In this document: positions 5,899-40,961 of the stretch, one piece after another
How positions within the stretch are numbered: the stretch's first letter is position 1
Layout of the letters: every line of letters begins with the position of its first letter
Source of the DNA: an uncultured Clostridium sp.
Lineage (GTDB): Bacteria; Bacillota; Clostridia; TANB77; CAG-508
Direction of reading: 5' to 3'
Assembly: GCA_930986425.1 (NCBI GenBank)
Contig: CAKNJR010000012.1
Location: 1-45,466 of the forward strand
Length of the DNA: 45,466 nucleotides
Program-made: the position numbers and the translations under genes
The notes under the pieces: generated by a model
Seen by the model: the letters and a program-made list of their open reading frames with translations, nothing else
The model's database searches: none
Told to the model about the DNA's origin: nothing

Positions 5899-7149
5899 AT
5901 GAAGATATTACTTGTAAATAAGTTCCACTATCTAAAAGGTGGAAGTGAAAAATACTATTTTGATTTAGCAAATTTATTAAAAGAAAATGGACATGAAGTT
6001 GCTTTTTTTTCAATGCAAGACGAAAAAAATATAAAGACTGATTGCAAAGAATATTTTGTAGAAAATTCAGATATGAATAGCAAAAACATATTTAAAGCTC
6101 TAGATGTAATCTATTCAAAAAAGAATAAAAAAGCAATGGAAAAAGCATTAGATGACTTTAAACCAGATATTGTTCATTTAAATAATTTTCAAAGACAATT
6201 ATCTGCATCTATAATTAAGCCAATAAAGAAGAGGAATATTCCTATTGTCTTTACTGCACATGACTTGCAAGCTATTTGCCCAGCAATAGTAATGTTGGAT
6301 AATGAAAAGAATATTTGTGATAAATGCATAAATGGTAAATACATGAATTGTATAAAAGGAAAATGCGTAAAAAATTCCTCATTAAAAAGTTTATTAGGTG
6401 CTATTGAAGGAAAATATTATAGAAATAAAAAAATATACACAAAACAAATAGATAAAATAATAACGCCAAGTAAGTACTTCAAAACTATGCTTGTGAAAGA
6501 TGGAGTAAAAGCAGATAGAGTGGAAATATTACATAATTTTATAGATGTTGATGAATACTCCGCCAAGATAGAAGACGAAGGCTATGCATTTTACTACGGA
6601 AGGCTAGCAAAAGAAAAAGGAATTTTTAATTTGCTAAATGCAATAAATAAAGTAAAAAATAAAAAATTACTTATTGCTGGAGAAGGTCCTGATAAAGAAA
6701 AGATAGAAAAATACATAATAGAAAATAATTTAAAGCAAAATGTAAAATTATTAGGATATTTGAAAACTAATCAAATAAAAGAATATGTAAGAAAAGCTAG
6801 AGTGATTATTGTACCTTCGATTTGTAGAGAAAATTGCCCATACTCTATACTTGAAACATTAGCAATTGGGAGACCTATTATAGGAAGTAACTTAGGGGGA
6901 ATTCCAGAGTTAGTCGTTAATAATGAGTGTGGATATATATATAATGATGAAAAAACATTAATTGAAAAATTAGAAAAATTATTAAATGATGAAGCTCTAG
7001 CAAAAAAAATGGGAGAGAATGCAAAAAAAATAGCCAATGAAAAATTTTCGAAAGATGCTTACTATAGTAAAATAATAACATTGTATGAACAATTAAGAAG
7101 AACTAAAAATAAAAAGGAGAGCAAAATCAAGAGTTTCTATGGAAAATAG
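5899..7149 (+). CDS. Glycosyltransferase family 4
   Basis: This 416-residue GT-B enzyme has a GGSEKYYFDLANLL start, an N-terminal acceptor domain and a C-terminal GT4 donor domain with YYGRLAKEKGI and the E-x7-E nucleotide-sugar motif (E311 and E319 in RENCPYSILE). An inserted four-cysteine stretch (CDKC...CIKGKC, about residues 138-156) could bind a metal and is known in some GT4 capsule enzymes. It likely adds one sugar to the lipid-linked repeat at the cytoplasmic face. Its 3' end overlaps the next gene by 11 bases. Donor and linkage are unknown. Confidence 0.9.
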   Translation: MKILLVNKFHYLKGGSEKYYFDLANLLKENGHEVAFFSMQDEKNIKTDCKEYFVENSDMNSKNIFKALDVIYSKKNKKAMEKALDDFKPDIVHLNNFQRQLSASIIKPIKKRNIPIVFTAHDLQAICPAIVMLDNEKNICDKCINGKYMNCIKGKCVKNSSLKSLLGAIEGKYYRNKKIYTKQIDKIITPSKYFKTMLVKDGVKADRVEILHNFIDVDEYSAKIEDEGYAFYYGRLAKEKGIFNLLNAINKVKNKKLLIAGEGPDKEKIEKYIIENNLKQNVKLLGYLKTNQIKEYVRKARVIIVPSICRENCPYSILETLAIGRPIIGSNLGGIPELVVNNECGYIYNDEKTLIEKLEKLLNDEALAKKMGENAKKIANEKFSKDAYYSKIITLYEQLRRTKNKKESKIKSFYGK

Positions 7150-8182
7150 TAAAAAAAGAGTTGTATGGATTGATCATCTGAAAGTATTTGCTTGCATATT
7201 AGTGGTTATAGGTCATTTGATTCAATCATTACAGAAAAGTAATATAGATAATTTTGAGAATATTACGAGTTTTATTAATTGGTTTATATATTTATTTCAT
7301 ATGCCACTGTTTTTTGCAGTGAGTGGGTATGTATATGAAATTAATAAAAAAGATTTTTCTTGGAAAGAATATAAAAGTTTTGCAATAAAAAAAGTAATAA
7401 ATTTAGGAATTCCATATATAGTTTTTTATTTACTATATGTAATAATAAACATGATATTTGCAGATAGTGTTAATTCACCAAAAGGAATTGAGGAAATAGT
7501 AGGAATATTAAATAACCCTATGCCTCCATATTGGTTTTTATATGCATTATTATCAATATTCATATTTGAACCATTAATTGAAAAAATATTAAAAAATAAT
7601 AAAACAGCTATTACTATTTTATTAGTAAGTTTAAAGATAATATCACTCTTTATAAGTACAAATATATATTTAGTTGATTCATTTTTTGGCAATGCTATTT
7701 ACTTTTATTTAGGAAGTATAATAAAAGATGTAATAGAAGCATCAAGAAATAAAATACGAGATAGTAGCATATTAAGAAATATTATGATGATAATAGGATA
7801 TATAATAGGTGCAATCATATACTATATACTTCAAAATAAAATAAATAACTATATATGTGCAATTATTAATTTAATATTTGCAATAAGTGGAACGCTAATT
7901 TGTTTTAAAATATTTATAAGTATTAATAAGTTAAAAATATTTGATTATATAAAGAGATATACTTTTCCAATATATTTATTACATACCATTTTTGCAGCAG
8001 GATTTAGAATAATCTTAATACAACTGGGGATAAGTAATTATTTTATTCACTTTATTATAGGATTATTTGCAAGCATTGCAATTCCAATAATAATTGCAAA
8101 GATATGCGAGAAGACAAAATACTTAAATTTCTTCTTTTATCCATATAAAACGATAAAAGAATTGAAAAATAAAAGCATTTAA
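7139..8182 (+). CDS. Acyltransferase family 3 membrane protein
   Basis: The 347-residue protein has about ten hydrophobic helices. Its N-terminus (WIDHLKVFACILVVIGH) carries the conserved Arg/Lys-x10-His type motif of acyltransferase family 3 (PF01757). Members O-acetylate or succinylate sugars of surface polysaccharides. The start overlaps the end of the preceding glycosyltransferase by 11 bases, so translation is probably coupled. It is one of two such enzymes here (the other is 9395-10387), besides the MBOAT/DHHW pair, so the polymer may carry several acyl groups. Confidence 0.85.
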   Translation: MENSKKRVVWIDHLKVFACILVVIGHLIQSLQKSNIDNFENITSFINWFIYLFHMPLFFAVSGYVYEINKKDFSWKEYKSFAIKKVINLGIPYIVFYLLYVIINMIFADSVNSPKGIEEIVGILNNPMPPYWFLYALLSIFIFEPLIEKILKNNKTAITILLVSLKIISLFISTNIYLVDSFFGNAIYFYLGSIIKDVIEASRNKIRDSSILRNIMMIIGYIIGAIIYYILQNKINNYICAIINLIFAISGTLICFKIFISINKLKIFDYIKRYTFPIYLLHTIFAAGFRIILIQLGISNYFIHFIIGLFASIAIPIIIAKICEKTKYLNFFFYPYKTIKELKNKSI

Positions 8183-8214
8183 ATTATATATTATATAAAA
8201 AGGAGCGATTGAAA

Positions 8215-9393
8215 ATGTCAAATAGAAAGCTAAATGGAACAGTTATAGTTACATACAGATGTAATGCAAGATGCAATATGTGTAGTAGATTTAAAAGACC
8301 ATCAAAACCAGATGAAGAAATTAGCTTAGAAACAATAAAAAAATTGCCAAAGATGTATTTTACAAATATAACTGGTGGAGAGCCTTTTATTAGAGAAGAT
8401 TTAAAAGATATAGTTAGAGAATTATACAAAAAATCAGATAGAATAGTAATATCAACAAATGGATTTTTTACTGATAGAATCATAGACTTATGCAAAGAAT
8501 TCCCTAATGTAGGTATTAGAATATCAATTGAAGGATTAGAAGAAACAAACAATAAAATAAGAGGTTTGCAAGATGGATTCAATAGAGGATACTCAACACT
8601 AAAAAAATTAGTTGAAATGAAGCACCCTGATGTAGGTTTCGGAATGACAGTACAAGATGCAAATGCTAAAGATTTAGTTCCATTATATAAACTATCAGAT
8701 GAACTAAATATGGAATTTGCAACAGCTTCTTTACATAACTCATTCTACTTCGTAGAAAACAAAAACATAATTCATGATAGATTAATGGTTGCAGAACAAT
8801 TTGAAAACTTAATAAATGAATTATTAAACTCAAATCAACCTAAAAAATGGTTTAGAGCTTACTTTAACCATGGACTAATAAATTACATATTTGGACAAAA
8901 GAGATTACTTCCATGTGATATGGCATTTGATACATTTTTTATAGACCCATATGGAGACGTAATGCCATGTAACGGAACAAAAGAAAAAGAAGTTATGGGA
9001 AATCTTAATGAACAAACTTGGGACGAGCTATGGAACAGTGAGCAAGCAGAAAAAGTAAGAAATAAAGTTAGACATTGTGATAGACAATGTTGGATGATAG
9101 GTTCAGTAAGCCCTGCAATGCATAAATACATTTGGAAACCAGCTTGGTGGGTTATAAGACATAAATTCTTTAGATTTTTCAAAAAGAAAAAATACTCAAT
9201 GTATGAAAATAAGATAGTACAAGATTACAAGGATGGAAAAGTAACAAAAGAAGAACTGGACAAATGTTCAACATGTGATTTAAGTTGTCCTGTTAATGAT
9301 GGACTTTCTGATACTTCAAGAGAAATATTAAAAGAAATGTCTGGTGAGGAATTTGTTAATCAAGATATAAAGAAGCAGTTGGAGAAGAAATAA
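8215..9393 (+). CDS. Radical SAM/SPASM domain protein
   Basis: The protein has about 392 residues. The radical SAM cluster motif CNARCNMC (Cys 16, 20, 23) is followed by TGGEPF (SAM-binding GGE) and later strand motifs. The C-terminal part has SPASM-like cysteines (PYGDVMPCNG, then CDRQC) and a further CSTCDLSC group near 346-354, so extra Fe-S clusters are likely. ATG 8215 is chosen because AGGAGC lies 8 bases upstream; the in-frame TTG at 8209 is too close. Such enzymes often modify peptides, but here it sits between two acyltransferases, so a sugar or lipid carrier substrate is possible. The reaction is unknown. Confidence 0.85.
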   Translation: MSNRKLNGTVIVTYRCNARCNMCSRFKRPSKPDEEISLETIKKLPKMYFTNITGGEPFIREDLKDIVRELYKKSDRIVISTNGFFTDRIIDLCKEFPNVGIRISIEGLEETNNKIRGLQDGFNRGYSTLKKLVEMKHPDVGFGMTVQDANAKDLVPLYKLSDELNMEFATASLHNSFYFVENKNIIHDRLMVAEQFENLINELLNSNQPKKWFRAYFNHGLINYIFGQKRLLPCDMAFDTFFIDPYGDVMPCNGTKEKEVMGNLNEQTWDELWNSEQAEKVRNKVRHCDRQCWMIGSVSPAMHKYIWKPAWWVIRHKFFRFFKKKKYSMYENKIVQDYKDGKVTKEELDKCSTCDLSCPVNDGLSDTSREILKEMSGEEFVNQDIKKQLEKK

Positions 9394-9394
9394 T

Positions 9395-10387
9395 ATGGAC
9401 TTGACAATGATAGTATTTTTAATAATATTTTTAGCAATAATTTTATATAAAGCTAAAATTGGAAAGAACATAAATAATAGTTTCTTTGAAAAAGAACAAT
9501 CCAAAGTAATAAAAGGAATATGTTGCATTATCGTTTTTTTAGTCCATGTTCCTAAAGAACATGGAAACGCTATACAAGATGCTATCGGTAGTTTTGGATA
9601 TATTTGTGTTACAATATTCTTTCTACTATCAGCATATGGTCTAAAATATAGTATAAACAACAAGAAAGATTACTTAAAGCATTTTTTTAGAAATAGAATT
9701 ATATCTATATATATACCATTTGTGATTGCAAACACATTATGGCAATTACTTGGATTTGAAGACGGAATAGATATTTGGGCTATAATTGGAATCGATAGTT
9801 TTTCGTTTATAGGAGAGCTAATAATTTTCTATTTATTATTTTATATAATTTACAAAAATATAGACAATAAAAAAGCGGACTTTATAATGATAGGAGCAAC
9901 TTTAGTTATTTCAATAGTATCATACGTTTTTCAAATAGGGTGGTTTGTAGAATGTTTGGGATTCGCTTATGGAATAATTTTTTATAACTTAGAAGAAAGA
10001 ATAAACAATTATTTTAATAAGTCATATTTAAAAAAGGTACTCTCTTTATGTATAATAAGTTTGATTTTAGGAACTGTTTATATTAGACTAAAAAATATTA
10101 TAATATTAAATTATATTTTTAAAATTTTATTAGGAATTTCTATTGTTGGCTTCCTAATTTGCCTATTCAAAAAAGTAAAACTAAATAATAAAATATTAAC
10201 TTTTTTAGGAAATATTAGTTTTGAAATATACTTATTACATGAAATAATAATGAAAATTTTAATTGGATTAAATATCTCTTCAGGTTGCTATATAGTAACA
10301 TCATTATTGTTAACTATTATTTTGGCTTGTATTATGAATTACATAGACATGAAAATAACAAAAGCAATAAAATATAATAAAAGATAG
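9395..10387 (+). CDS. Acyltransferase family 3-like membrane protein
   Basis: The 330-residue protein has around nine or ten hydrophobic helices. An N-terminal cytosolic stretch (EKEQSKVIKGICCIIVFLVHVPKEHG) resembles the acyltransferase-3 start, with a histidine after the first helix, and a late FEIYLLHE motif is typical of the family. It begins one base after the stop of the radical SAM gene, so the two are probably co-translated. It likely acylates the polysaccharide or an intermediate. It is more diverged from the family than the copy at 7139. Confidence 0.72.
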   Translation: MDLTMIVFLIIFLAIILYKAKIGKNINNSFFEKEQSKVIKGICCIIVFLVHVPKEHGNAIQDAIGSFGYICVTIFFLLSAYGLKYSINNKKDYLKHFFRNRIISIYIPFVIANTLWQLLGFEDGIDIWAIIGIDSFSFIGELIIFYLLFYIIYKNIDNKKADFIMIGATLVISIVSYVFQIGWFVECLGFAYGIIFYNLEERINNYFNKSYLKKVLSLCIISLILGTVYIRLKNIIILNYIFKILLGISIVGFLICLFKKVKLNNKILTFLGNISFEIYLLHEIIMKILIGLNISSGCYIVTSLLLTIILACIMNYIDMKITKAIKYNKR

Positions 10388-19712: not shown

Positions 19713-20813
19713 ATGAAATATGACTATTTAATAGTTGGAGCAGGTTTATTTGGAGCAATATTTGCTTATGAGGCAACTAAAAAAGGAAAAAAATGCTTGG
19801 TAGTAGAAAAACGTTCACATATAGGAGGAAATATTTATACTGAAAATATAGAAAACATTAATGTACATAAATATGGTGCACATATCTTCCACACTAGTAA
19901 TAGAAAAGTCTGGGATTATATTAATCAATTTGCAGAATTTAATCGATATACGAATTCTCCAGTAGCTAGATATAAAAATGAATTATATAATATGCCATTT
20001 AATATGAATACGTTTAATAAACTATGGGGAGTAATAACACCAGATGAAGCAAAAACAAAAATAGAACAAGAAAAAAAAGAAGCAGGAATCACTGAACCAC
20101 AAAATTTAGAAGAACAAGCTATTAGTTTAGTTGGAAAAACAATATATGAAAAGCTTGTAAAAGGTTACACAGAAAAACAATGGGGAAAAAAGGCAACAGA
20201 ATTACCATCTTTTATTATTAAGAGACTGCCTGTAAGATTTATATATGACAATAATTATTTTAATGATGATTATCAAGGTATTCCAATAGGAGGATATACT
20301 CAAATTATAGAAAAAATGCTAGACGGGATAGAAGTAAGATTGAATATAGATTTTCTAGAGTATAGAAAAGAATTAGAAAATATTGCAGATAAAATTATTT
20401 ATACTGGACAAATTGATAAATATTATGATTATTGCTTTGGTGAACTTGAGTATAGAAGTTTAAGATTTGAAACAGAAGTATTAGATAAAGATAATTATCA
20501 AGGCAATGCAGTAGTAAATTATACAGAATACGAAGTTCCATATACAAGAATAATAGAGCATAAGCATTTTGAAAAAATAAAGAACAGGGAAAAGACAATT
20601 ATTACTAGAGAATATCCAGATAAATGGGACAAAATTAAAGAACCATATTACCCTGTAAATGATGAAAAAAATAATCAATTATATGAAAAATATAAAAAAC
20701 TTGCAAATCAAAATAATAAAGTTATTTTCTGTGGTAGATTAGGAGAATATAAATATTATGATATGGATAAGGTTATAGATAGGGCTTTGGAAAGTGTAAA
20801 TGAAATATGCTAA
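19713..20813 (+). CDS. glf: UDP-galactopyranose mutase
   Basis: This 366-residue flavoenzyme converts UDP-galactopyranose to UDP-galactofuranose. The N-terminal FAD-binding motif YLIVGAGLFGAIFAYEA (GxGxxG) is followed by KYGAHIFHTSN, GYTEKQWGKKATELP, RLPVRF and the C-terminal GRLGEYKYYDMD, all hallmark Glf segments. ATG 19713 is preferred because AGAAAGGA lies 8 bases upstream; the TTG at 19707 overlaps that spacing. It follows the broken Fe-S gene and supplies the donor for the GlfT2-like enzyme at 15014-15940. Confidence 0.96.
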   Translation: MKYDYLIVGAGLFGAIFAYEATKKGKKCLVVEKRSHIGGNIYTENIENINVHKYGAHIFHTSNRKVWDYINQFAEFNRYTNSPVARYKNELYNMPFNMNTFNKLWGVITPDEAKTKIEQEKKEAGITEPQNLEEQAISLVGKTIYEKLVKGYTEKQWGKKATELPSFIIKRLPVRFIYDNNYFNDDYQGIPIGGYTQIIEKMLDGIEVRLNIDFLEYRKELENIADKIIYTGQIDKYYDYCFGELEYRSLRFETEVLDKDNYQGNAVVNYTEYEVPYTRIIEHKHFEKIKNREKTIITREYPDKWDKIKEPYYPVNDEKNNQLYEKYKKLANQNNKVIFCGRLGEYKYYDMDKVIDRALESVNEIC

Positions 20814-20844
20814 TATTACAAAATATTAATATATTTGTAATATT
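20812..20844. repeat. AT-rich perfect inverted repeat
   Basis: An 11-bp perfect inverted repeat (AATATTACAAA at 20812-20822, TTTGTAATATT at 20834-20844) lies in the 81-base gap after glf. No T-run follows it on the + strand, so it does not look like a normal terminator. It could be an operator or a weak processing structure before the dockerin gene. Confidence 0.4.
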
Positions 20845-20894: not shown

Positions 20895-23573
20895 ATGTTA
20901 CCAAGAAAAAAGATAAAAGCAAAGTTATTTATTATAATATCAATATTATTAGTTATATATATACTCAGTTTATACTTCTTTAAATCGAATAATAATTATA
21001 AAAATAGTTCAGAGACGCAATTAAGAGAAATTATAAGACAAGCTGATTTGATTAGTAGAAGTGAAAATAATGAAGGAATAACATATTATGTATCAATAGA
21101 AGGGACTTCAACGGAAGGAACAAGCATAAATGAGCCTATGTCACTAGAAATGGCAAATACTAAGACATATTATGGAGGAGATAGAGTTCTATTTAAAAGA
21201 GGAGAAACCTTTTATGGAGTAGTAAAGTTCGATGTTGATGCGAATGAAAATAATATGTTCTACATTGGAAGCTATGGTGATGAAAAATTGGAAAAACCTA
21301 TTATTTCAGGTGCAATGGTATTACAAAATTTGAATGCATGGGAAAAAGAGGAAGATCTTCTGTATAAGTTAGATTTAACTAATGAAAAAAATTTCACTGG
21401 ACTTATAGACCCTAGTTGGGACAAATATAATGTTGGTACTTTACAAGGCGAAAATGGAGTTATCTATGGAAATAAGAAAAAAGATATTTCGTCTCTAAAT
21501 GAGGAAAATGACTTTTGTGTTAAAGATAATTGGTTATATGTAAAGTGCCAAAACAATCCTATAGATGAATATGGGCATATAAAAATTACATTGAGAAATG
21601 ATTTAATAAAAATAACTAATAATACAATACTAGATGGATTGATTGTCGAAAATACCGGCGCACATGGAATAGCAGGAGCGACTTTTAATGTCTATATTAA
21701 GAACTGCGTTATACAAAATATAGGAGGTTCATATATTAATGATGATGGAAATCGATATGGTAATGGAATAGAATTTTGGAATGCATCAAATAATACAGTG
21801 GTTGAAAATTGCATATTTAGAAATATATATGACGCAGGATATACATTACAGGGAGATTCTGTAAAAAGCGGATTTTATAATAGTATATGCCAAAATAATA
21901 TATTTATTAATTGCACATATCCAATAGAAATATTTTGCCATAATTCTTTAAATATAGATAATTGTGAATTTGAAAATAATAAAGTAAATAACAATATTAT
22001 TATTAATCAAGGACAAGGTTTTGGATATGAAACAAGACCTGACAAATTCCAACCTGCAAATTTAGTTACTTGGATTTTACCATATCCAGAGACAAAATTT
22101 GAATACACAAATAACAAAATATATAATAGTAGAGCATTATACTACAAAGGAGTAAATGCAGCAGAAGATATGTATTCAAAATGCATTCATTCAAATAATA
22201 ATTTGTATTATATTACTGATAATACCAATTATTTTTTAGATGTAAATAAATATCAGGATTTAGAATATTTACATAGCCAAGGATTAGATTTAAACTCCAC
22301 CTTCAACTACTTATCAGACGCAGAAATCAATGAAATATCAAATCCAAATATATTAAATTCAAATGACTATGAAGAAATCAAAGCATACTATGATAACTTT
22401 GATATCAAATACAGAAATAGTCAATGGAAAGAAGCAGTATTAACTGAATTAGAAACAATAATAAATCAAGAAGATTATGCTGTAATACTACAAAATGCAG
22501 AGATTGAAGCTTCATACGAAGAACTAAAAAATGCCATAGATAATTTAACAAAAAATGTTGACACAATAACTGTGGATAATGTATCATATAGTCATGAGTG
22601 TCTATACAAATTTATAGGAAAAATAGTAGATGAGTATTATAACAATAAATCACTAGATATAGCTGAAAACATAATAATTGAATTGATAGAAGAACTAGAC
22701 AAATTATCAGAACAATATAAAGAAATATACTCATATTACATTACAGAAGATAATGTTGAAATAGAAACTGTAAAAAACAAAATAAATGACACAATTGACA
22801 AATATAATAACAACTTAGACTTAGATATAGCTAGTCTAGAAAGTATAATAACAACTTCAAAGAACATTTACAACAATTATATAACAACAGATAATATATA
22901 TGAAAATCTACTTAATAAAAACAGAATAATATATATTACAAACATAGTAGATAATATAATTGACAATAAGATAAATAAATTTGTCGAAGATGAAAAATCT
23001 AAAATACGAGTTGAATTTAATCAAGACATAGATGAACCAACAAATGAAAATATTACTGCAACATTAATTGTTGGAAACAATACCACAATAATAAATAATG
23101 GAGAAAGTAATACATATACATTTTACGAAAATGGTACATTTAATTTTGAATTAGAAATAAAAGGTGTCAAATTCACAGTTGCAATTACAATTGCCAACAT
23201 AAATAAAGAATATAAAATAGAAAACGGATATATTAGTAATATTTCAAAGAATACTTTAGCTGAAACATTAAGTAATGAGCTTAATATATCTAATTATAAA
23301 ATAACGCATAATGGAAAAGAACTAAATCTAAGCAAAGAGGTAATTTCGACAGGAGACATCCTAACTTATGATAACAAAGAATATACATTAATAGTTAGCG
23401 GTGATATAAATAAAGATGGAGATTGTGGAATACATGATTTAGTAAGCTTTAGAAAATACTTATTAGAATATTCTACATATGATAATTTAGAAGAAATGGC
23501 AGCAGATACAAATCAAGATAATAGTTTAGATATAAAAGACCTAGTTGGTATAAGGAAAATAATATTGAATTAA
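20895..23573 (+). CDS. Secreted parallel beta-helix protein with C-terminal type I dockerin
   Basis: The 892-residue protein has an N-terminal signal peptide or anchor (about 8-28), then a right-handed beta-helix region at about 80-430, rich in N/I/G turns (NNTILDGLIVENTGAHGIAG, NNTVVENCIFRNIYDAGY). Such folds are typical of polysaccharide lyases and epimerases. A helical stretch (about 500-690), an Ig-like segment (about 700-770) and a linker follow. The last 60 residues hold two dockerin repeats: GDINKDGDCGIHDLVSFRKYLL and ADTNQDNSLDIKDLVGIRK. No catalytic residues could be assigned. The next gene encodes a cohesin-like LPQTG protein, a likely docking partner. It may process the polysaccharide made by this locus. 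Confidence 0.85.
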   Translation: MLPRKKIKAKLFIIISILLVIYILSLYFFKSNNNYKNSSETQLREIIRQADLISRSENNEGITYYVSIEGTSTEGTSINEPMSLEMANTKTYYGGDRVLFKRGETFYGVVKFDVDANENNMFYIGSYGDEKLEKPIISGAMVLQNLNAWEKEEDLLYKLDLTNEKNFTGLIDPSWDKYNVGTLQGENGVIYGNKKKDISSLNEENDFCVKDNWLYVKCQNNPIDEYGHIKITLRNDLIKITNNTILDGLIVENTGAHGIAGATFNVYIKNCVIQNIGGSYINDDGNRYGNGIEFWNASNNTVVENCIFRNIYDAGYTLQGDSVKSGFYNSICQNNIFINCTYPIEIFCHNSLNIDNCEFENNKVNNNIIINQGQGFGYETRPDKFQPANLVTWILPYPETKFEYTNNKIYNSRALYYKGVNAAEDMYSKCIHSNNNLYYITDNTNYFLDVNKYQDLEYLHSQGLDLNSTFNYLSDAEINEISNPNILNSNDYEEIKAYYDNFDIKYRNSQWKEAVLTELETIINQEDYAVILQNAEIEASYEELKNAIDNLTKNVDTITVDNVSYSHECLYKFIGKIVDEYYNNKSLDIAENIIIELIEELDKLSEQYKEIYSYYITEDNVEIETVKNKINDTIDKYNNNLDLDIASLESIITTSKNIYNNYITTDNIYENLLNKNRIIYITNIVDNIIDNKINKFVEDEKSKIRVEFNQDIDEPTNENITATLIVGNNTTIINNGESNTYTFYENGTFNFELEIKGVKFTVAITIANINKEYKIENGYISNISKNTLAETLSNELNISNYKITHNGKELNLSKEVISTGDILTYDNKEYTLIVSGDINKDGDCGIHDLVSFRKYLLEYSTYDNLEEMAADTNQDNSLDIKDLVGIRKIILN

Positions 23574-23585
23574 AGGAGCAAGCAT

Positions 23586-24452
23586 ATGAAAAAGGTAAAT
23601 TTAAAATTTATTGTAAGTTTAATTATACTACTATTAGTTATCTCGTTAACTTCAATAACAAAAGCTGCAAATGGTTCACTAACAGTAAGAATTACACCAG
23701 ATGCATCAAAAGCCATTACAGATAAAGAAGTATATGTAACATTAAGTTTAACAGATTTTAATAATGTAGAAACAACTTGGCCAATGGCTGGACAAGGAAC
23801 ATTAGAGTATGACGAAACAATATTTGAAAAAGTCAGTATTGAAGGACTAAATGGTTGGTCTGCAAGTATGAATCAATCAGGAGTAATTTTACTTGACACT
23901 GCAAGTGTAACAGACGGTGATGAAATAGCTAAAATTACATTAACAATAAAAGACAGTGCAACTACATTTAGCACAGAAATAAATGTCAACTCATTTAACC
24001 TAACAAATGGTGATGATGGCGAAGGTAATGAAAATGTTAATGTTGAAAACATGAATTTAACAGCTAGAGTAACAGTAAATGACCAAAGTGGAAGTGATGA
24101 TAACACTGAAACTCCTGGAACAGGAACAGAAAATCCAGGTGATAATGAAAATTCGGGAACAACAGAACCACCAACAGATAACGAAAATAATCCAACAGAT
24201 GACAGTCAAAACAATAATCAAGGCAATAATAATGAAAATAACAATCAGGAAAATAATAATAATTCAAATAACAATGGTAATAGTGATGATGGTAAAGAAG
24301 AGCCTAATACCATAGAAAAAGTAGAAGATTTAACTGTTGCCAAAGATAAATTACCACAAACAGGAACAAGCTATGTAATATTCGGTGTGATAGCATTAGT
24401 ATTAATGATTGGAATAATAGCTTTTATAAGATATAAGAAATTTTATGACTAA
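23586..24452 (+). CDS. LPQTG cell-wall-anchored protein with cohesin-like domain
   Basis: The 288-residue protein has a signal peptide (about 1-28, ending TKAAN), a beta-rich domain at about 30-160, a long Asn/Glu/Gly/Thr low-complexity spacer (about 163-240), and a sortase sorting signal: LPQTG near 260, a hydrophobic helix and a short basic tail. The domain's pattern (EVYVTLSLTDFNNV, TLEYDETIFEKVSIEG, GVILLDTASVTDGDEIAKITLTIK) matches cohesin-fold modules. It follows the dockerin gene by 12 bases. The inference is a one-cohesin surface scaffold holding the dockerin protein on the cell wall. The cohesin call is by pattern only; cell-wall anchoring is well supported. Confidence 0.8.
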   Translation: MKKVNLKFIVSLIILLLVISLTSITKAANGSLTVRITPDASKAITDKEVYVTLSLTDFNNVETTWPMAGQGTLEYDETIFEKVSIEGLNGWSASMNQSGVILLDTASVTDGDEIAKITLTIKDSATTFSTEINVNSFNLTNGDDGEGNENVNVENMNLTARVTVNDQSGSDDNTETPGTGTENPGDNENSGTTEPPTDNENNPTDDSQNNNQGNNNENNNQENNNNSNNNGNSDDGKEEPNTIEKVEDLTVAKDKLPQTGTSYVIFGVIALVLMIGIIAFIRYKKFYD

Positions 24453-24472: not shown

Positions 24473-25174
24473 ATGGAAGAGGAAATAGATTTAAAAAGTA
24501 TAATACAATCGTTCTGGGAAAGAAAAATTGGAATGATTATAATAGTCCTAATATCTTTAATATTAGGATATATATATACAATGTATTTTGTAAATCCAGT
24601 ATATACAGCAACATCAACAGCAATATTGGCAAATAATACAGAGACATCAGATGGTCAAAATGGAGGAGTTACACAAAGTGAAGTAACATTAAACAACTCA
24701 CTACTATCTACATATAGAGGGATTGCAACTAGCGACTCAGTAGTTAACACTGTAATAAGCAATTTGGGATTAAATATATCAGCTGGAGAATTAAAAAATC
24801 AAATAAGTGTTACATCTGCAACAAACACACAAATAATTCAAATTTCGGTAGAAAATGCAGATGCAAGTTTAGCTGCAAGAATAGCAAATGAACTAAGACA
24901 AGTTTTTACTGAAAGAGTTGCTGAAATATATGACATGGAAAATATAAAACCATTAGATGATGCTCAAGTTCCAACAGCACCTAGTAATATAAATCATGTA
25001 AAAGATTTGTTGATATTCCTTGCAGGTGGAATAGTAGTAGCTATAATCTATGTAGTACTAGCAAATCTTTTAGATAACACTGTAAAAAATAGTAATGATA
25101 TAGAAAAAGCAATAGGAATAAATGTTATTGCAGAAATACCAGTTTATGAATTTGGTAGAGGGAGGAAAAGATAA
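24473..25174 (+). CDS. Wzz/YveK-type chain-length and kinase-activator membrane protein
   Basis: The 233-residue protein has two membrane helices (about 18-37 and 181-203) flanking an extracytoplasmic helical domain (about 38-180). The N-terminus EEEIDLKSIIQSFWERKIGMIIIVLISLILGYIYTMYFVNPVYTATST is typical of the Wzz family (PF02706), and a proline-rich PLDDAQVPTAPSNINHVKD precedes the second helix. In Firmicutes this subunit (CpsC, EpsA, CapA) activates the separate tyrosine kinase and sets polymer length. Its stop directly abuts the start of the kinase gene. The CpsC role is inferred from order and family. Confidence 0.92.
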   Translation: MEEEIDLKSIIQSFWERKIGMIIIVLISLILGYIYTMYFVNPVYTATSTAILANNTETSDGQNGGVTQSEVTLNNSLLSTYRGIATSDSVVNTVISNLGLNISAGELKNQISVTSATNTQIIQISVENADASLAARIANELRQVFTERVAEIYDMENIKPLDDAQVPTAPSNINHVKDLLIFLAGGIVVAIIYVVLANLLDNTVKNSNDIEKAIGINVIAEIPVYEFGRGRKR

Positions 25175-26203
25175 ATGAAAAAGGAAATAATCACTCAATC
25201 AGACCCAAAATCCCCAATATCAGAGGTATTTAGAGCATTAAGAACTAATATTCAATTTATGAATAGGTCGGCAGATTGTCAAACCATTCTTATTACAAGT
25301 ACTGTACAAGCAGAAGGAAAAAGCTGGATATCTGCAAATTTGGCTACAACATTTGCACAATCTGGAAGTAAAACTTTAATTATTGATGCAGATATGAGAA
25401 AACCAAGACAACATAAAATTTTTCAAATAAATAATGTTCCAGGACTATCTAATTACCTTTCTGAAATAAATGAAATGGGTAGAAGACAAAAAATAGATGG
25501 AATGGACTGTGTTAAACCAACAGAAGTAGAAAATTTATATTTATTACCCGCAGGAAATATACCACCAAATCCATCTGAGTTATTAATGTCAGATAAGATA
25601 GTAGAATTAATAGATGAAGTAACTAAAAATTTTGATGTAGTTTTATTTGATGGAGCACCATGTTTGCTAGTTACTGATTCAACAATCATATCTAGATTAG
25701 TAGAAAGCACAATTTTAGTTACAAGCTATAAATATACAAAAATAGATGACTTAAAAGAAGCAAAAAAACGTATAAAAAGAGTTGGTGGAAATATAGCAGG
25801 AGTAGTATTAAATAGAGTGGAAATTTCAAATAAAAAATATGAAGAAAAATATTACTATGCAAGCTCAAATACGCCAGCATTAAAAGTAGAAAAGAATACA
25901 AAACGTGCAAGTAAGAATTACGAAAAGTATAGAAGCAAAGCTGATGAAGAGATAGAAAGTAGCATTGACTTGAAAGCAGAGAAATTATCTGAAAAAGTAA
26001 ATAAAGTAAAAACTGAGACAAAAGTGGAAAGAAAACCAGAAGCAAAACAGGAAGAAAATGTTAATAAATATATTAATGACAGAATAGAAGACACACAAAG
26101 ACAAATAGAAGATGAAATAAGAAATACAAAATTTAAGTCAAAAGTAGAAGTACCATCAGATAAAGCAAAGGAAATACTAGAGAGTATAAAAAAATATAAA
26201 TAA
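25175..26203 (+). CDS. CpsD/CapB-type tyrosine kinase with extended C-terminal tail
   Basis: The bacterial tyrosine kinase core occupies about residues 1-235: SPISEVFRALRTNIQFM, Walker A variant AEGKSWISANLA (Trp after GKS), Walker A' LIIDADMRKPR, and Walker B-like DVVLFDGAPCLLVTDS. A short tyrosine cluster (EEKYYYASS) ends the normal core. About 110 Lys/Glu-rich residues follow, giving 342 in total against roughly 230-260 for most relatives. It phosphorylates itself with help from the preceding membrane subunit and is dephosphorylated by the next gene. The tail may be a coiled coil or protein-binding region; its role is unknown. Confidence 0.9.
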   Translation: MKKEIITQSDPKSPISEVFRALRTNIQFMNRSADCQTILITSTVQAEGKSWISANLATTFAQSGSKTLIIDADMRKPRQHKIFQINNVPGLSNYLSEINEMGRRQKIDGMDCVKPTEVENLYLLPAGNIPPNPSELLMSDKIVELIDEVTKNFDVVLFDGAPCLLVTDSTIISRLVESTILVTSYKYTKIDDLKEAKKRIKRVGGNIAGVVLNRVEISNKKYEEKYYYASSNTPALKVEKNTKRASKNYEKYRSKADEEIESSIDLKAEKLSEKVNKVKTETKVERKPEAKQEENVNKYINDRIEDTQRQIEDEIRNTKFKSKVEVPSDKAKEILESIKKYK

Positions 26204-26254: not shown

Positions 26255-27013
26255 ATGATAGACGTTCATTCTCATATATTACCAAGCATAGATGATGGCT
26301 CAAAAGATATTGAAGAAACATTTAAAATAATAAATGAAGCCTGCGAGGCAGGCTTTTCTAATATTTTTGCAACTTCACATTATATAGAAGGAGAATATGA
26401 ATTTAATAAAACAGATAGAGAATTTATAATTGAAGCAATAATGCAAAAGGTAAAAGAAGAAAGAATTGACATAACCATTCATAATGGAGCTGAGGGATAT
26501 ATATCAAATGAACTACCTAATTTAATAAAAGAAGGAATAGTTCCTACACTTGCAAATAGTAAATATATATTATTTGAATTGCCACTTAGAGCAAAAGTAA
26601 TGTATACAGATGAAGTAATTATCAAATTGATAAAAATGAACTTAGTTCCTATAATAGCTCACCCAGAAAGATATGAATTAATACAAGATGAGCCAGGTAT
26701 AGCAATAAAATGGGTTGAAGAAGGCGCTCTTTTGCAATCTAATTATGGAAGTATAATCGGTAGATATGGTATGACAGCAAAAGAAACTTTATTTAAATTA
26801 TTAGACAGCAATGCAGTGCATTTCTTAGGAACAGATAATCATAGAGCAGGAAGTATATATACAAGAATGGATGATATAAAAAGAGAATTTAAGAAAAAAA
26901 TAGGAAGAGATAAATTTAAAGAGCTAAGCGAAATTAATCCTAGATGTATTCTAAATAATCAGAATATAGAAATAGAGATGCCTAAGAAGATTAAGAAAAG
27001 AAGAATGTTTTAA
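26255..27013 (+). CDS. CpsB/CapC-type PHP tyrosine phosphatase
   Basis: The 252-residue PHP-fold metal-dependent phosphatase begins MIDVHSHILPSIDDGSKDIEET, the metal-binding DxHxH motif of CpsB/YwqE. Further metal ligands appear in IIAHPERY and LGTDNHRAGS. It removes phosphate from tyrosines of the CpsD-like kinase and so regulates polymer length and export. It is the last gene of the polysaccharide locus, with a terminator 60 bases downstream. AAAGGA lies about 12 bases before the start. Confidence 0.93.
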   Translation: MIDVHSHILPSIDDGSKDIEETFKIINEACEAGFSNIFATSHYIEGEYEFNKTDREFIIEAIMQKVKEERIDITIHNGAEGYISNELPNLIKEGIVPTLANSKYILFELPLRAKVMYTDEVIIKLIKMNLVPIIAHPERYELIQDEPGIAIKWVEEGALLQSNYGSIIGRYGMTAKETLFKLLDSNAVHFLGTDNHRAGSIYTRMDDIKREFKKKIGRDKFKELSEINPRCILNNQNIEIEMPKKIKKRRMF

Positions 27014-27145: not shown

Positions 27146-27168
27146 AATGGAAATAAATGGTATATAAT
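27140..27168 (+). promoter_or_regulatory. Consensus sigma-A promoter
   Basis: TTGACA (27140-27145), a 17-base spacer and TATAAT (27163-27168) form a perfect consensus. Transcription would begin near 27175. The in-frame ATG at 27157 lies inside the promoter and cannot be the start of the following gene. Confidence 0.85.
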
Positions 27169-27195
27169 AATTTGCATGAGAAAGCGAGAGTGTAT

Positions 27196-28788
27196 ATGAT
27201 TTTAAAAATATTAAGAATTAAAGATGACGTGGATATAGATTTAATAAAATCTATTGTTAAAGAAAGTGCAAGAAAATCTGAAAATTTTGAAGAATTAGAA
27301 AAAAAGACACAGTATGAACAAAAAGAATATAATGTTTTCTTTTATGTTTATAATAGGAGTAATGAAATTCAAATAACATGGATTCGAGATATGGAAAATA
27401 TTTTAGGCGAAGAATTAGAAAATGATAGTAAAGATTTTATATCTTCATATGGAGTTATGCTAATATATAATGATGAATTGAAGTATGCTATTGAATTTGG
27501 AAGAGAAATTACAGGAATATTGAGTTATATAGATTGGGAGTTTGGATTAGATATGGCTTCGAAGATTTTAAATAGCAATTCTTTAAGAAAACAATCGATG
27601 AAATATGCGTCAACTATAAAAAATAGAGCCACATTAGCTTTTTTTAACGCAAATTTTAATCCGAGAGCCGGAGAATCTATTGAAAAGTTAGAAGGAGAGA
27701 TTATAGAGAAAAAAGGACATACCTATGTGAGAGAGTTATTTAATTTAATTAAAAAGAATGTGATTTTCCAAGGAAATATGCAGGTGGATTACAAAAGAGA
27801 AAATAAGAGCTTGAAAGACATAATCCAAATAATTTATTATGTCGATAAAATTAGAGAAAAATATAAGGAAGATAATTTGGATATCCCAAGAGTAAAGTTT
27901 TTAAGTGAATCTAAGGATAAAGAATTAATAACAAATTTAAATGAAAAATTAAGCAACTTTGTGATCAATGGATATCAGGGGGATGATATTAAATTAGATA
28001 TTAATAATTACTTATCTAATTTTCAGCTAAGAACTGGTAGAAAAAGAACAGAGCCTAAGGACACTTTAGAAGCAGAAGACATAAAGAAATTTATGCTAGA
28101 AAATAATATAAGTGATATAACAAAAGTAATTGTTATAGAAAACGGAAAGCCTTATCCCATTCTTGAGTATATAGATACTCGCATAGAAGTTGAGGACAAG
28201 ATGTATAGCTTATCTAAGGGGAGATGGGTTGAACTAAATAGATCTTTTATAGAAAACATAAATTTAGAAATAGCAAATTTAATAAAGCATAAAAGTTTAA
28301 TAATAGAATTTGATAATAAATTTGACTTAAATAAAAATAAAAATAAACAATTTAGAAAATTGCATCCAGAAAAATTTAATGAAAAAATAAATTATGGAGA
28401 ATACGAATACAACATTAGAATAGCCGAAGAATTAGGATATGTAGTATATGATAGAACTAAATTCGATGGTATTGAAATATGTGATTTGTTTGATAAAAGT
28501 AAAGGAGAACTAATCCATGTAAAAAGGGGGTCAATAGCAGACTTCAAATATTGTATTGACCAATCTGAATTAGGAGTAAGAAAATGGATAGAACTAACAG
28601 ACAAAAAAGAATTCAAAAATATTAATAGTATAGCATTAGTACTATTAGCAGATAGTAGTGATTTACTAAAAAAGAAAGACTTGTTGTCAATTAATTCTCC
28701 AATGTTTAAAACAAAGTTAATTGAATGGGCTCAATTAATAATAGATTTGAATATGACTCCTCATATAATTATAGCAAAAAACGAATAA
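27196..28788 (+). CDS. TIGR04141/DUF6119-like protein of unknown function
   Basis: The 530-residue soluble protein has no membrane segments. Segments that resemble the sporadically distributed TIGR04141 (DUF6119) family are YAIEFGREITG...DWEFGLDMASKILN early, and EYEYNIRIAEE..., EICDLFDKSKGELIHVKRG near the C-terminus. The family's biochemical role is not established and its members are scattered, suggesting transfer and possibly a role in accessory or defence loci. The start is placed at ATG 27196 (weak GAGAG upstream) because earlier in-frame ATG codons fall in or near the promoter. A 75-residue membrane peptide follows 4 bases downstream. The family assignment is from memory of patterns. 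Confidence 0.65.
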   Translation: MILKILRIKDDVDIDLIKSIVKESARKSENFEELEKKTQYEQKEYNVFFYVYNRSNEIQITWIRDMENILGEELENDSKDFISSYGVMLIYNDELKYAIEFGREITGILSYIDWEFGLDMASKILNSNSLRKQSMKYASTIKNRATLAFFNANFNPRAGESIEKLEGEIIEKKGHTYVRELFNLIKKNVIFQGNMQVDYKRENKSLKDIIQIIYYVDKIREKYKEDNLDIPRVKFLSESKDKELITNLNEKLSNFVINGYQGDDIKLDINNYLSNFQLRTGRKRTEPKDTLEAEDIKKFMLENNISDITKVIVIENGKPYPILEYIDTRIEVEDKMYSLSKGRWVELNRSFIENINLEIANLIKHKSLIIEFDNKFDLNKNKNKQFRKLHPEKFNEKINYGEYEYNIRIAEELGYVVYDRTKFDGIEICDLFDKSKGELIHVKRGSIADFKYCIDQSELGVRKWIELTDKKEFKNINSIALVLLADSSDLLKKKDLLSINSPMFKTKLIEWAQLIIDLNMTPHIIIAKNE

Positions 28789-39053: not shown

Positions 39054-40961
39054 ATGGATAATGAAAAATTCGGAAATTTTATTAAAGAATTGAGAAAAGA
39101 AAAAAACTTAACGCAAAAAGAATTGGCAAAAGAAATTAATATTACAGACAAAGCAATATCTAAATGGGAAAGAGGACTTAGTTTCCCAGATATAACAATG
39201 TTAAATATTCTCTCAAAAGAATTTAATGTATCAATTGAAGAATTGCTTAATGGTGGAAGAATAAAACCTGAAAATAAAGAAAATGAAAATAGCAATATAA
39301 AAGAAAAAATAGATATTGAAAAAGCTGTTAAAGAAGCATTAGAAAAAGCTAATAATAAAGAAGAAAAAAGAAAAGCAAAGATAGAAAAGGCAAAAAAAAT
39401 TACAAAAATAATATCTATAATTGTATTTGCCATTTTTGTAATACTACAATGTGCGTATTTTTATTTATCTTATCAATATGGTTTCGAATATATTATAGAT
39501 AGCTTGTTTTACATAGTTAATGAAATTATTTTAATAAGTATGTTCTTATTTTTGCTATTTACTTTTAAGAATAAAAAAGTAAAGATTATAACAACATCTG
39601 TTTTTGTCATTATTTCATTAATTAATATTATTTTCATGAGCATATATGGATTTAGAAATAAAACATTTATAAGTTATTCTAATAATTTGCAGTATCAATT
39701 TATAGTAAAACAGGATAAAGAAACAAATGAAGTTAAAATTTATAAAAATGCTATAGTAATATTTGCAAGACAGATGCAAAATTTAGTAGAGCCAGCAAAT
39801 AACGTGAAAGTACAATGGATTTCAAGAGATATATTTAGCATAACATACACAAATAATGATGATGAATTAAAAGAATATGTAATTACTTTAGATGAAGATA
39901 ATTATAAATCATCATATAGACCATTTGATGAGGCTCTAATCGGAAATTGGCAAAGTGTTAATTATAGCAATAAAACTACAAGATTATATGTAGATAGTAA
40001 AAATATTCGAGTTATATTAAATGATGATATATATACTTTTGAAATAGAAGATTGTGTATCAGTAAGAGAAGAGGCTATTATTTTATATTCAAATAAAGTT
40101 CCTAAATTTATTATAGCATTAGATAATAATGCAGAGCTTGATGAGGATACTGGAATAATAAAAGATGAAGGAACGATAATTATCTCTGAAATATCTACTG
40201 ATAAAACAAAAAAGGAAGAACTTTACTGTACTACTCCAAAAACAAATGACTTATCTAATTATAATTATGTGAATTTAGCTGCTAAGCAATATGCAATAAG
40301 AAATGGGTTATTATATTTTAGCTATGATGGTGAAAAAACGGTTGTCGTTCCAGGAAACTTTTCGAAAATTGAATCCTACAATGAAGGACAATATCAAATA
40401 TCAGATGAAAAGATAGTATTCTATTACGAAGCTAATTATGGAAAATATATTGTTTTTTCAGAAGATAAAGGACAAAACTGGCAAACAGAAAAGCTACCTT
40501 TTAGCGGAACTATAAAATCAATTAATTTTCCAACAGCAAAAGTAGGATACATTTTAGAATTTACTGATGAAACAATGGGCGCAGCAACAGGAGCTATATA
40601 CAAAACAACTGACGGAGGAATAAGCTGGCAAGAAGTATTTACAGGAATAAGTGATGGATATTCCACTGTATTTAAGTCAGGAACTGAGATGATATTTGCA
40701 AGTGAAAATGTAGGATTTATAACAATGCCAGATAGAATGGGAGAAGTCAGCTATTTATATATTACAAAAGATGGCGGAAATACTTTTGAAAAATTGGAAC
40801 TTGCAACAAATCCAGACTGCGATTATTATTTATTGCCTACAATAGAAAATGGCGAAATACACATAAAAATAGCTGTAGGATATGCTAGTGATGAATCTTC
40901 ATATAAAACTGTTGAAGAATTTATATCAAAAGATAATGGAGAAACTTTTGAAAAGGAATAA
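39054..40961 (+). CDS. Membrane-anchored XRE-type regulator with C-terminal Asp-box domain
   Basis: The 635-residue fusion has an XRE helix-turn-helix at about 6-62 (LTQKELAKEINITDKAISKWERGLSFPDI), a Lys/Glu coiled coil (about 80-120), three membrane helices (about 121-200) and a large C-terminal domain of about 430 residues. Its last third has four Asp-box (BNR) turns: SEDKGQNW, TTDGGISW, TKDGGNTF and SKDNGETF, as in sialidase-like or YCF48-like beta-propellers. The DNA-binding end is cytoplasmic, so the propeller is probably outside and may sense a ligand. Target genes are unknown. No good Shine-Dalgarno precedes the ATG. Confidence 0.82.
   Translation: MDNEKFGNFIKELRKEKNLTQKELAKEINITDKAISKWERGLSFPDITMLNILSKEFNVSIEELLNGGRIKPENKENENSNIKEKIDIEKAVKEALEKANNKEEKRKAKIEKAKKITKIISIIVFAIFVILQCAYFYLSYQYGFEYIIDSLFYIVNEIILISMFLFLLFTFKNKKVKIITTSVFVIISLINIIFMSIYGFRNKTFISYSNNLQYQFIVKQDKETNEVKIYKNAIVIFARQMQNLVEPANNVKVQWISRDIFSITYTNNDDELKEYVITLDEDNYKSSYRPFDEALIGNWQSVNYSNKTTRLYVDSKNIRVILNDDIYTFEIEDCVSVREEAIILYSNKVPKFIIALDNNAELDEDTGIIKDEGTIIISEISTDKTKKEELYCTTPKTNDLSNYNYVNLAAKQYAIRNGLLYFSYDGEKTVVVPGNFSKIESYNEGQYQISDEKIVFYYEANYGKYIVFSEDKGQNWQTEKLPFSGTIKSINFPTAKVGYILEFTDETMGAATGAIYKTTDGGISWQEVFTGISDGYSTVFKSGTEMIFASENVGFITMPDRMGEVSYLYITKDGGNTFEKLELATNPDCDYYLLPTIENGEIHIKIAVGYASDESSYKTVEEFISKDNGETFEKE

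Follow-up and report, generated by a model that had tools for sequence, protein, structure and literature searches.

A dockerin-tailed beta-helix protein and a single-cohesin, sortase-signal protein encoded side by side in a capsule-type operon of an uncultured Clostridium

RESULTS

The window analysed here is a 45,466-nucleotide stretch of DNA from an uncultured Clostridium sp. (contig CAKNJR010000012.1), and our subject is a pair of adjacent genes in it that encode a dockerin-tailed beta-helix protein and a cohesin-fold protein with an LPQTG sortase signal. The dockerin gene (20895–23573, 892 amino acids) is followed after a 12-base gap by the LPQTG gene (23586–24452, 288 amino acids), which ends 20 bases before wzz; the two genes, their domains and the flanking polysaccharide, wzz, cpsD and cpsB genes all lie on the + strand. 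Upstream is a polysaccharide synthesis block (184–20813) with genes for LCP proteins, a sugar transferase of the initiating type, acyltransferases, glycosyltransferases, a flippase, a pyruvyl transferase and glf. Downstream are genes for a Wzz chain-length determinant (24473–25174; Pfam Wzz, 2.6e-14), a CpsD-type tyrosine autokinase (25175–26203; NCBIfam TIGR01007, 2.2e-60) and a CpsB-type phosphatase (26255–27013; Pfam CpsB_CapC, 1e-53). The sequence and these matches confirm the position between glf and Wzz/CpsD/CpsB that the original prediction had given the pair, and it is because of its gene content that we call the locus capsule-type. Predicted fold, scores of relatives, recurrent adjacency of the genes and matched divergence of the two domains give good support to the pairing of a one-cohesin, sortase-signal protein with a dockerin protein in such a locus.

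The LPQTG protein begins with a predicted signal peptide (residues 1–27, 23586–23666), in which a hydrophobic core precedes the small-x-small sequence TKA. The cohesin-fold domain follows (residues 28–165, 23667–24080). A predicted model of residues 26–170 (predicted local distance difference test, pLDDT, 91.3) has the nine-stranded jelly-roll of cohesins, and the 27 top-ranked solved structures that match it are cohesins or cohesin-bearing scaffoldins. In addition, the domain matches a profile of nine relatives positive for the Pfam cohesin model PF00963, with a probability of 99.3. A search of solved structures with the protein sequence gave chance matches only, and the profile of the LPQTG family reached the cohesin 3ul4 weakly (E 0.18, ranked below a non-cohesin at 0.078); thus, fold prediction was needed to reach the cohesins. 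A low-complexity spacer rich in Asn, Asp, Gly and Pro (24081–24350) leads to the LPQTG motif (24351–24365), a hydrophobic stretch and a charged tail (PF00746, 24.6 bits, cut-off 20). The protein thereby has the parts of a sortase-anchored wall protein, and sortases are encoded in the same genome. Sequence, PF00746 and fold model therefore agree with the original prediction, which had read a signal peptide, a cohesin-like domain, a spacer and a sortase signal in this gene; the region to which it had assigned the domain (residues ∼30–160) came out in the model as a cohesin fold and not as another fold.

The dockerin-bearing protein has an N-terminal hydrophobic segment (residues 11–29, 20925–20981; mean hydropathy 2.86 over 19 residues) with no clear small-x-small site after it by our heuristic, and the model shows a helix from residue 5 to 55; this segment is likely an uncleaved membrane anchor. 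The right-handed beta-helix domain (residues 63–455, 21081–22259) matches alginate, rhamnogalacturonan and pectate lyases as well as GH136 in fold, and the predicted model thus places it among beta-helix polysaccharide lyases and glycosidases. Residues E293, D313, Q319 and E345 are invariant across 46 aligned sequences. From this lyase- or hydrolase-like fold, the protein is predicted to act on glycans. Based on model secondary structure, the domain is followed by a helical stalk (residues 456–704, 22260–23006) and a small beta domain, Ig-like by eye (residues 705–770, 23007–23204). Next comes a conserved module (residues 771–833, 23205–23393), X-module-like in position; in many genomes it is matched along with the dockerin but the remainder of the protein is not. 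The terminal type I-like dockerin (residues 834–892, 23394–23570) indeed carries the two repeats noted earlier: a calcium-binding loop is duplicated, with conserved Asp/Asn ligands at positions 837, 839, 841 and 848 and at 871, 873, 875 and 882. The dockerin model PF00404 (cut-off 22.9) scores 27.1 bits in the genome scan and 20.9 by hmmscan.

The gene pair recurs in relatives. Of 243 genomes from the same family, 211 are matched by the LPQTG family profile, matches to the LPXTG tail only being included, and PF00963 is above its cut-off in 52 of 95 relatives. We examined 40 regions chosen by a cohesin match, 39 from the family profile and one (genome G013) from a single-sequence search; the 39 are mostly the best profile rows, not strictly in order of rank, and several places were partly known when they were chosen, which makes this a non-blind selection. 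In 28 of the 40 regions (27 of 39 without G013) a dockerin gene precedes the cohesin on the same strand at a distance of no more than 400 nt, and in 31 one is present within 400 nt on either side. By comparison, only 2 of 317 other open reading frames (ORFs) of at least 200 amino acids in the same regions sit within 400 nt downstream of a dockerin gene, a crude control in which spurious ORFs are included. The original prediction had suggested looking for the pair in related capsule loci, and the recurrent adjacency bears it out. In 13 of the 40 regions wzz is found downstream within the fetched stretch, and 11 of these have a dockerin gene within 400 nt. Seven loci (L139, L140, L143, L149, L156, L157 and L164) encode proteins with both a cohesin and a dockerin domain, resembling adaptor scaffoldins.

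To describe the capsule-type setting, we assembled a set, not a random sample, of 22 loci with a cohesin upstream of wzz: the 13 wzz regions plus L035–L041, L043, L220 and the window, with L039 and L135 counted once as contigs of equal length, and leaving out L042 (too short) and L044 (neither dockerin nor wzz). A dockerin gene is present in the sequence read for all of them except L169, although in L035 and L133 this gene is not adjacent but ∼6 kb upstream. The cohesin-to-wzz distance ranges from tens of bases to ∼2.7 kb. Short extra cohesin ORFs occur in L040 (10091–10480) and L042 (1952–2374).

The proteins joined to these dockerins differ between loci. A Pfam scan covering the window's partner and 14 others of the 21 found leucine-rich-repeat (LRR) cargo in L039, L040, L141 and L166, GH42 with DUF4832 in L152, weak GH42 below cut-off in L131 and Big_3 in L136; the dockerin was found alone, or with extras below cut-off, in L037, L038, L041, L043, L132, L153 and L170. 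Partners in L037 and L038 align with the beta-helix protein of the window, as do two (L035 and L036) of the six outside the scan (L035, L036, L133, L134, L144 and L220); the first 60 residues of the L144 partner equal those of L141. Since partners in other capsule-type loci are LRR or GH42-like, the constant feature is the latch and not one enzyme. We rejected the notion of a single, invariable type of enzyme as cargo, as the partners comprise beta-helix, LRR, GH42-like, Big_3 and unrecognised types. In L043, the dockerin gene is split into two ORFs (7139–9683).

Latch and cargo also differ in divergence. In four close loci (in genomes G015, G027, G018 and G003, in that order), identity to the window is 75, 79, 76 and 52% for the cohesin, 85, 76, 80 and 73% for the dockerin and 81, 80, 81 and 76% for wzz, but 38, 57, 53 and 38% for the beta-helix. 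G015 and the window share the genes that open the locus and the cohesin-wzz-cpsD-cpsB end; most genes between these differ, and the dockerin gene is situated in this differing part. Across 58 unique adjacent pairs, the distance matrices of cohesin and dockerin correlate with r of 0.72, a value reached in none of 2000 permutations. When partners were swapped within a genome, the true one was favoured in three of three genomes, narrowly so in one, which is too few to weigh. Relatives of 967–978 amino acids may use a second cohesin class; their dockerins, in the three rows listed, are 38–49% identical to that of the window and are not clearly nearer the L041 or L043 dockerins.

A relative of the beta-helix protein seems to do without the latch. 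Genome G109 encodes, on the – strand, a 1225-amino-acid protein (L231, G109:C17, 4199–7873) that is 31% identical over residues 59–779, has a second beta-helix region and ends, as read by eye, in IPYTG with a hydrophobic span and then a basic tail. Cohesin and dockerin profiles had no match on the 13.9-kb stretch that holds it. Given a tail of this kind in a relative without a dockerin, the dockerin-cohesin pair seems to be a substitute for a direct wall anchor. The gene adjoins a flippase 57% identical to that of the window, a glycosyltransferase and other polysaccharide genes. These neighbours bear on an alternative in which the displayed protein faces the outside world, as an adhesin or as an enzyme that acts on glycans of the host or its diet; the pair would then sit in the polysaccharide operon merely to be co-expressed with the surface layer through which it has to reach. 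We consider this alternative less likely than our main interpretation. Against it stand the position of the one-piece relative, again beside flippase and glycosyltransferase genes, and that of the G015 dockerin gene, inside a glycosyltransferase block that differs from that of the window.

Four dockerin genes were found in the genome of the window. The other three genes (L229, G000:C8 and L230, G000:C14) carry SH3_3 (two) or Amidase_3 with Big_2 (one), and thus the genome has no large set of dockerin-bearing plant-wall enzymes such as defines a cellulosome. The gene after each of these three encodes a protein that looks secreted and has Cadherin-like or weak Big_2 domains. The cohesin profile had no match on these products, which may be an unrecognised class of receptor. 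As regards a cellulosome scaffoldin with several cohesins, PF00963 has no match over the whole genome, but it also misses the cohesin of the window. With four dockerin genes and no Pfam cohesin, other receptors must exist or be unrecognised, which would fit an arrangement in which the window dockerin binds another cohesin, the LPQTG protein binds another partner and their adjacency is historical. We regard this as very improbable: the adjacency recurs far above background, and a single-sequence search found the window protein as the only cohesin-domain protein of the genome, its second match being to an LPXTG tail (a further profile, A1, gives two matches, the second not listed by place).

Other features of the window include a DUF6119 protein of unknown function directly after cpsB (27157–28788) and a helix-turn-helix protein with BNR/sortilin-like repeats (39054–40961); no tRNA was found in the window. 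A perfect 11-bp inverted repeat (20812–20844) runs from the end of glf into the gap ahead of the dockerin gene. It arose in none of 100 shuffles, for a pattern picked after being seen, and among 238 loci it is present only in L171, which is the same place as the window. Within the polysaccharide locus, a radical SAM/SPASM gene (8209–9393) is 96% identical to its G015 counterpart, compared to 51–86% for other shared genes at that end, and may possibly have been exchanged recently.

DISCUSSION

We interpret the pair as a two-piece wall-display socket within a capsule operon, similar to the ScaE-CttA arrangement but serving the cell's own envelope, with a probability of roughly 0.6. The LPQTG protein would be anchored in the wall, where its single cohesin-fold domain would grip the dockerin of the preceding gene's product; that the two bind is highly probable, and display at the wall, by a presumed covalent attachment of the LPQTG protein, is probable. 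The beta-helix protein would thereby be held in the zone of the wall and would likely encounter the capsule polymer of the cell there. As a mechanism this would be a socket: with the cohesin at the constant end of the operon, each locus would supply its own dockerin-tailed cargo. If the N-terminus of this protein is retained in the membrane, the latch would form a bridge from membrane to wall. Of the original prediction of a one-cohesin wall scaffold that holds an enzyme acting on the cell's own polysaccharide, the pairing of a sortase-signal cohesin with a dockerin stands, whereas action on the cell's own polymer is no more than plausible. The modelled fold fits lyases and hydrolases of glycans, but we put such action at somewhat less than an even chance. 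A broader proposal is that the cohesin belongs to the constant wzz-cpsD-cpsB end of the operon as a universal socket, into which each capsule type plugs its own dockerin-tailed tailoring enzyme or adhesin, a cellulosome-style machine working on the envelope polymer of the cell itself; this we advance tentatively, as falling a little short of even odds.

Several results weigh against this interpretation. Of the two Pfam models with which the original prediction had proposed to search, the dockerin model gives its target scores on either side of the cut-off, as stated above, and the cohesin model has no match on the LPQTG protein of the window. Among its counterparts, PF00963 (cut-off 24.1) accepts those in G015 (25.8) and G048 (32.7), scores below cut-off in G027 (20.5) and G018 (20.6) and has no match in G003, G025, G006 (C6), G007 (C1:135–136 kb) or G013 (C25). 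Similarly, if structural matches within 1 Z are counted as tied, the lower-ranking cohesins are tied with integrins (Z 9.7 versus 9.5) and only the top cohesins are separated. A further alternative is that the domain is an adhesin- or integrin-like beta sandwich and not a working cohesin. This is very improbable, as cohesins occupy the first 27 rows of structural matches, some counterparts at the same place in the operon score above the Pfam cut-off and a cohesin profile seeded from the LPQTG family recovers 28 of 30 Pfam-cohesin loci, although it was iterated on the same loci and is not independent.

The distribution of the pair adds further points of this kind. For nine of the 40 cohesin regions, the 400 nt on either side hold no dockerin gene (eight have none, and one has it at 6.2 kb), and 17 of 20 further wzz regions have neither domain, several of them ending at contig edges shortly upstream. 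In the remaining three, the pair lies beyond cpsB (L219) or upstream of wzz (L220), or the region opens, at a contig edge, partway through an LPQTG tail (L222). The pair is therefore an accessory of some capsule types only, and its presence in every wzz locus was rejected. The LRR and GH42-like cargo found elsewhere speaks against a single shared enzymatic role, and Pfam Gram_pos_anchor has no match on the G109 relative at E up to 0.1. Finally, in 33 pairs with intact cargo, the cohesin correlates as well with the cargo (r 0.69) as with the dockerin (0.68); thus, shared ancestry accounts for part of the correlation within pairs, and the cargo control does not separate dockerin from cargo in this comparison. 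When cargo is restricted to <20% identity (487 of 528 cells), r drops to 0.36, still above all 2000 permutations.

If the interpretation is correct, the latch of cellulosomes is also used to equip the cell's own surface layer, recurrently in the capsule-type operons of one family of Clostridia with small genomes, whose named members are known here only as metagenome-assembled genomes. A constant socket with exchangeable cargo would provide a simple test bed and candidate new cohesin-dockerin pairs for protein engineering, and hints at how these bacteria might trim or decorate their capsules.

Most of what is known of cohesin-dockerin pairs concerns cellulosomes, which they hold together for the degradation of plant fibre. 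Non-cellulosomal use is known from glycoside hydrolases of Clostridium perfringens, whose cohesins (2vo8, 2jh2 and 2w1n) are the nearest solved folds to the window cohesin; there, according to the PDB titles, the cohesin is within the enzyme, whereas in the window the wall-anchor protein carries it and the cargo has the dockerin. The GH136 lacto-N-biosidase 6kqs ranks first in Foldseek against the beta-helix protein, whose N-terminal part it also matches by sequence profile; the entry title names no dockerin, and the likeness is one of fold and profile, catalytic residues aside. RbmB of Vibrio cholerae is a lyase able to act on the cell's own matrix polymer (PMC11637428, abstract); it is described as secreted, and its abstract mentions neither cohesin nor dockerin, whereas the window protein is dockerin-tailed. 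Among the open-licence papers listed, titles and abstract openings showed nothing on cohesin-dockerin pairs in capsule or exopolysaccharide loci. One paper (PMC4035507) contains both terms, Wzz and cohesin; in 12 of its 16 matching places Wzz does not occur. A genome survey of cellulosome bacteria, in its available passages, defines anchoring scaffoldins other than the SLH type, with LPxTG among the signals, and reports single-cohesin proteins in presumably non-cellulolytic Lachnoclostridium (PMC11557425). The closest parallel is ScaE of Ruminococcus flavefaciens, described in passages of PMC5301203 as an LPXTG protein with one cohesin, to which the X-module-dockerin dyads of ScaB and CttA bind; its sortase attachment also appears in part of PMC12484212. 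Both systems have one cohesin on an LPXTG protein and a partner that ends in a module and a dockerin. However, ScaE serves to anchor a multi-enzyme cellulosome along with a carbohydrate-binding protein, while the window has a capsule-type operon and one beta-helix partner. Thus, the latch resembles known ScaE-type anchoring, and what is new is its setting in a capsule operon, not the kind of latch.
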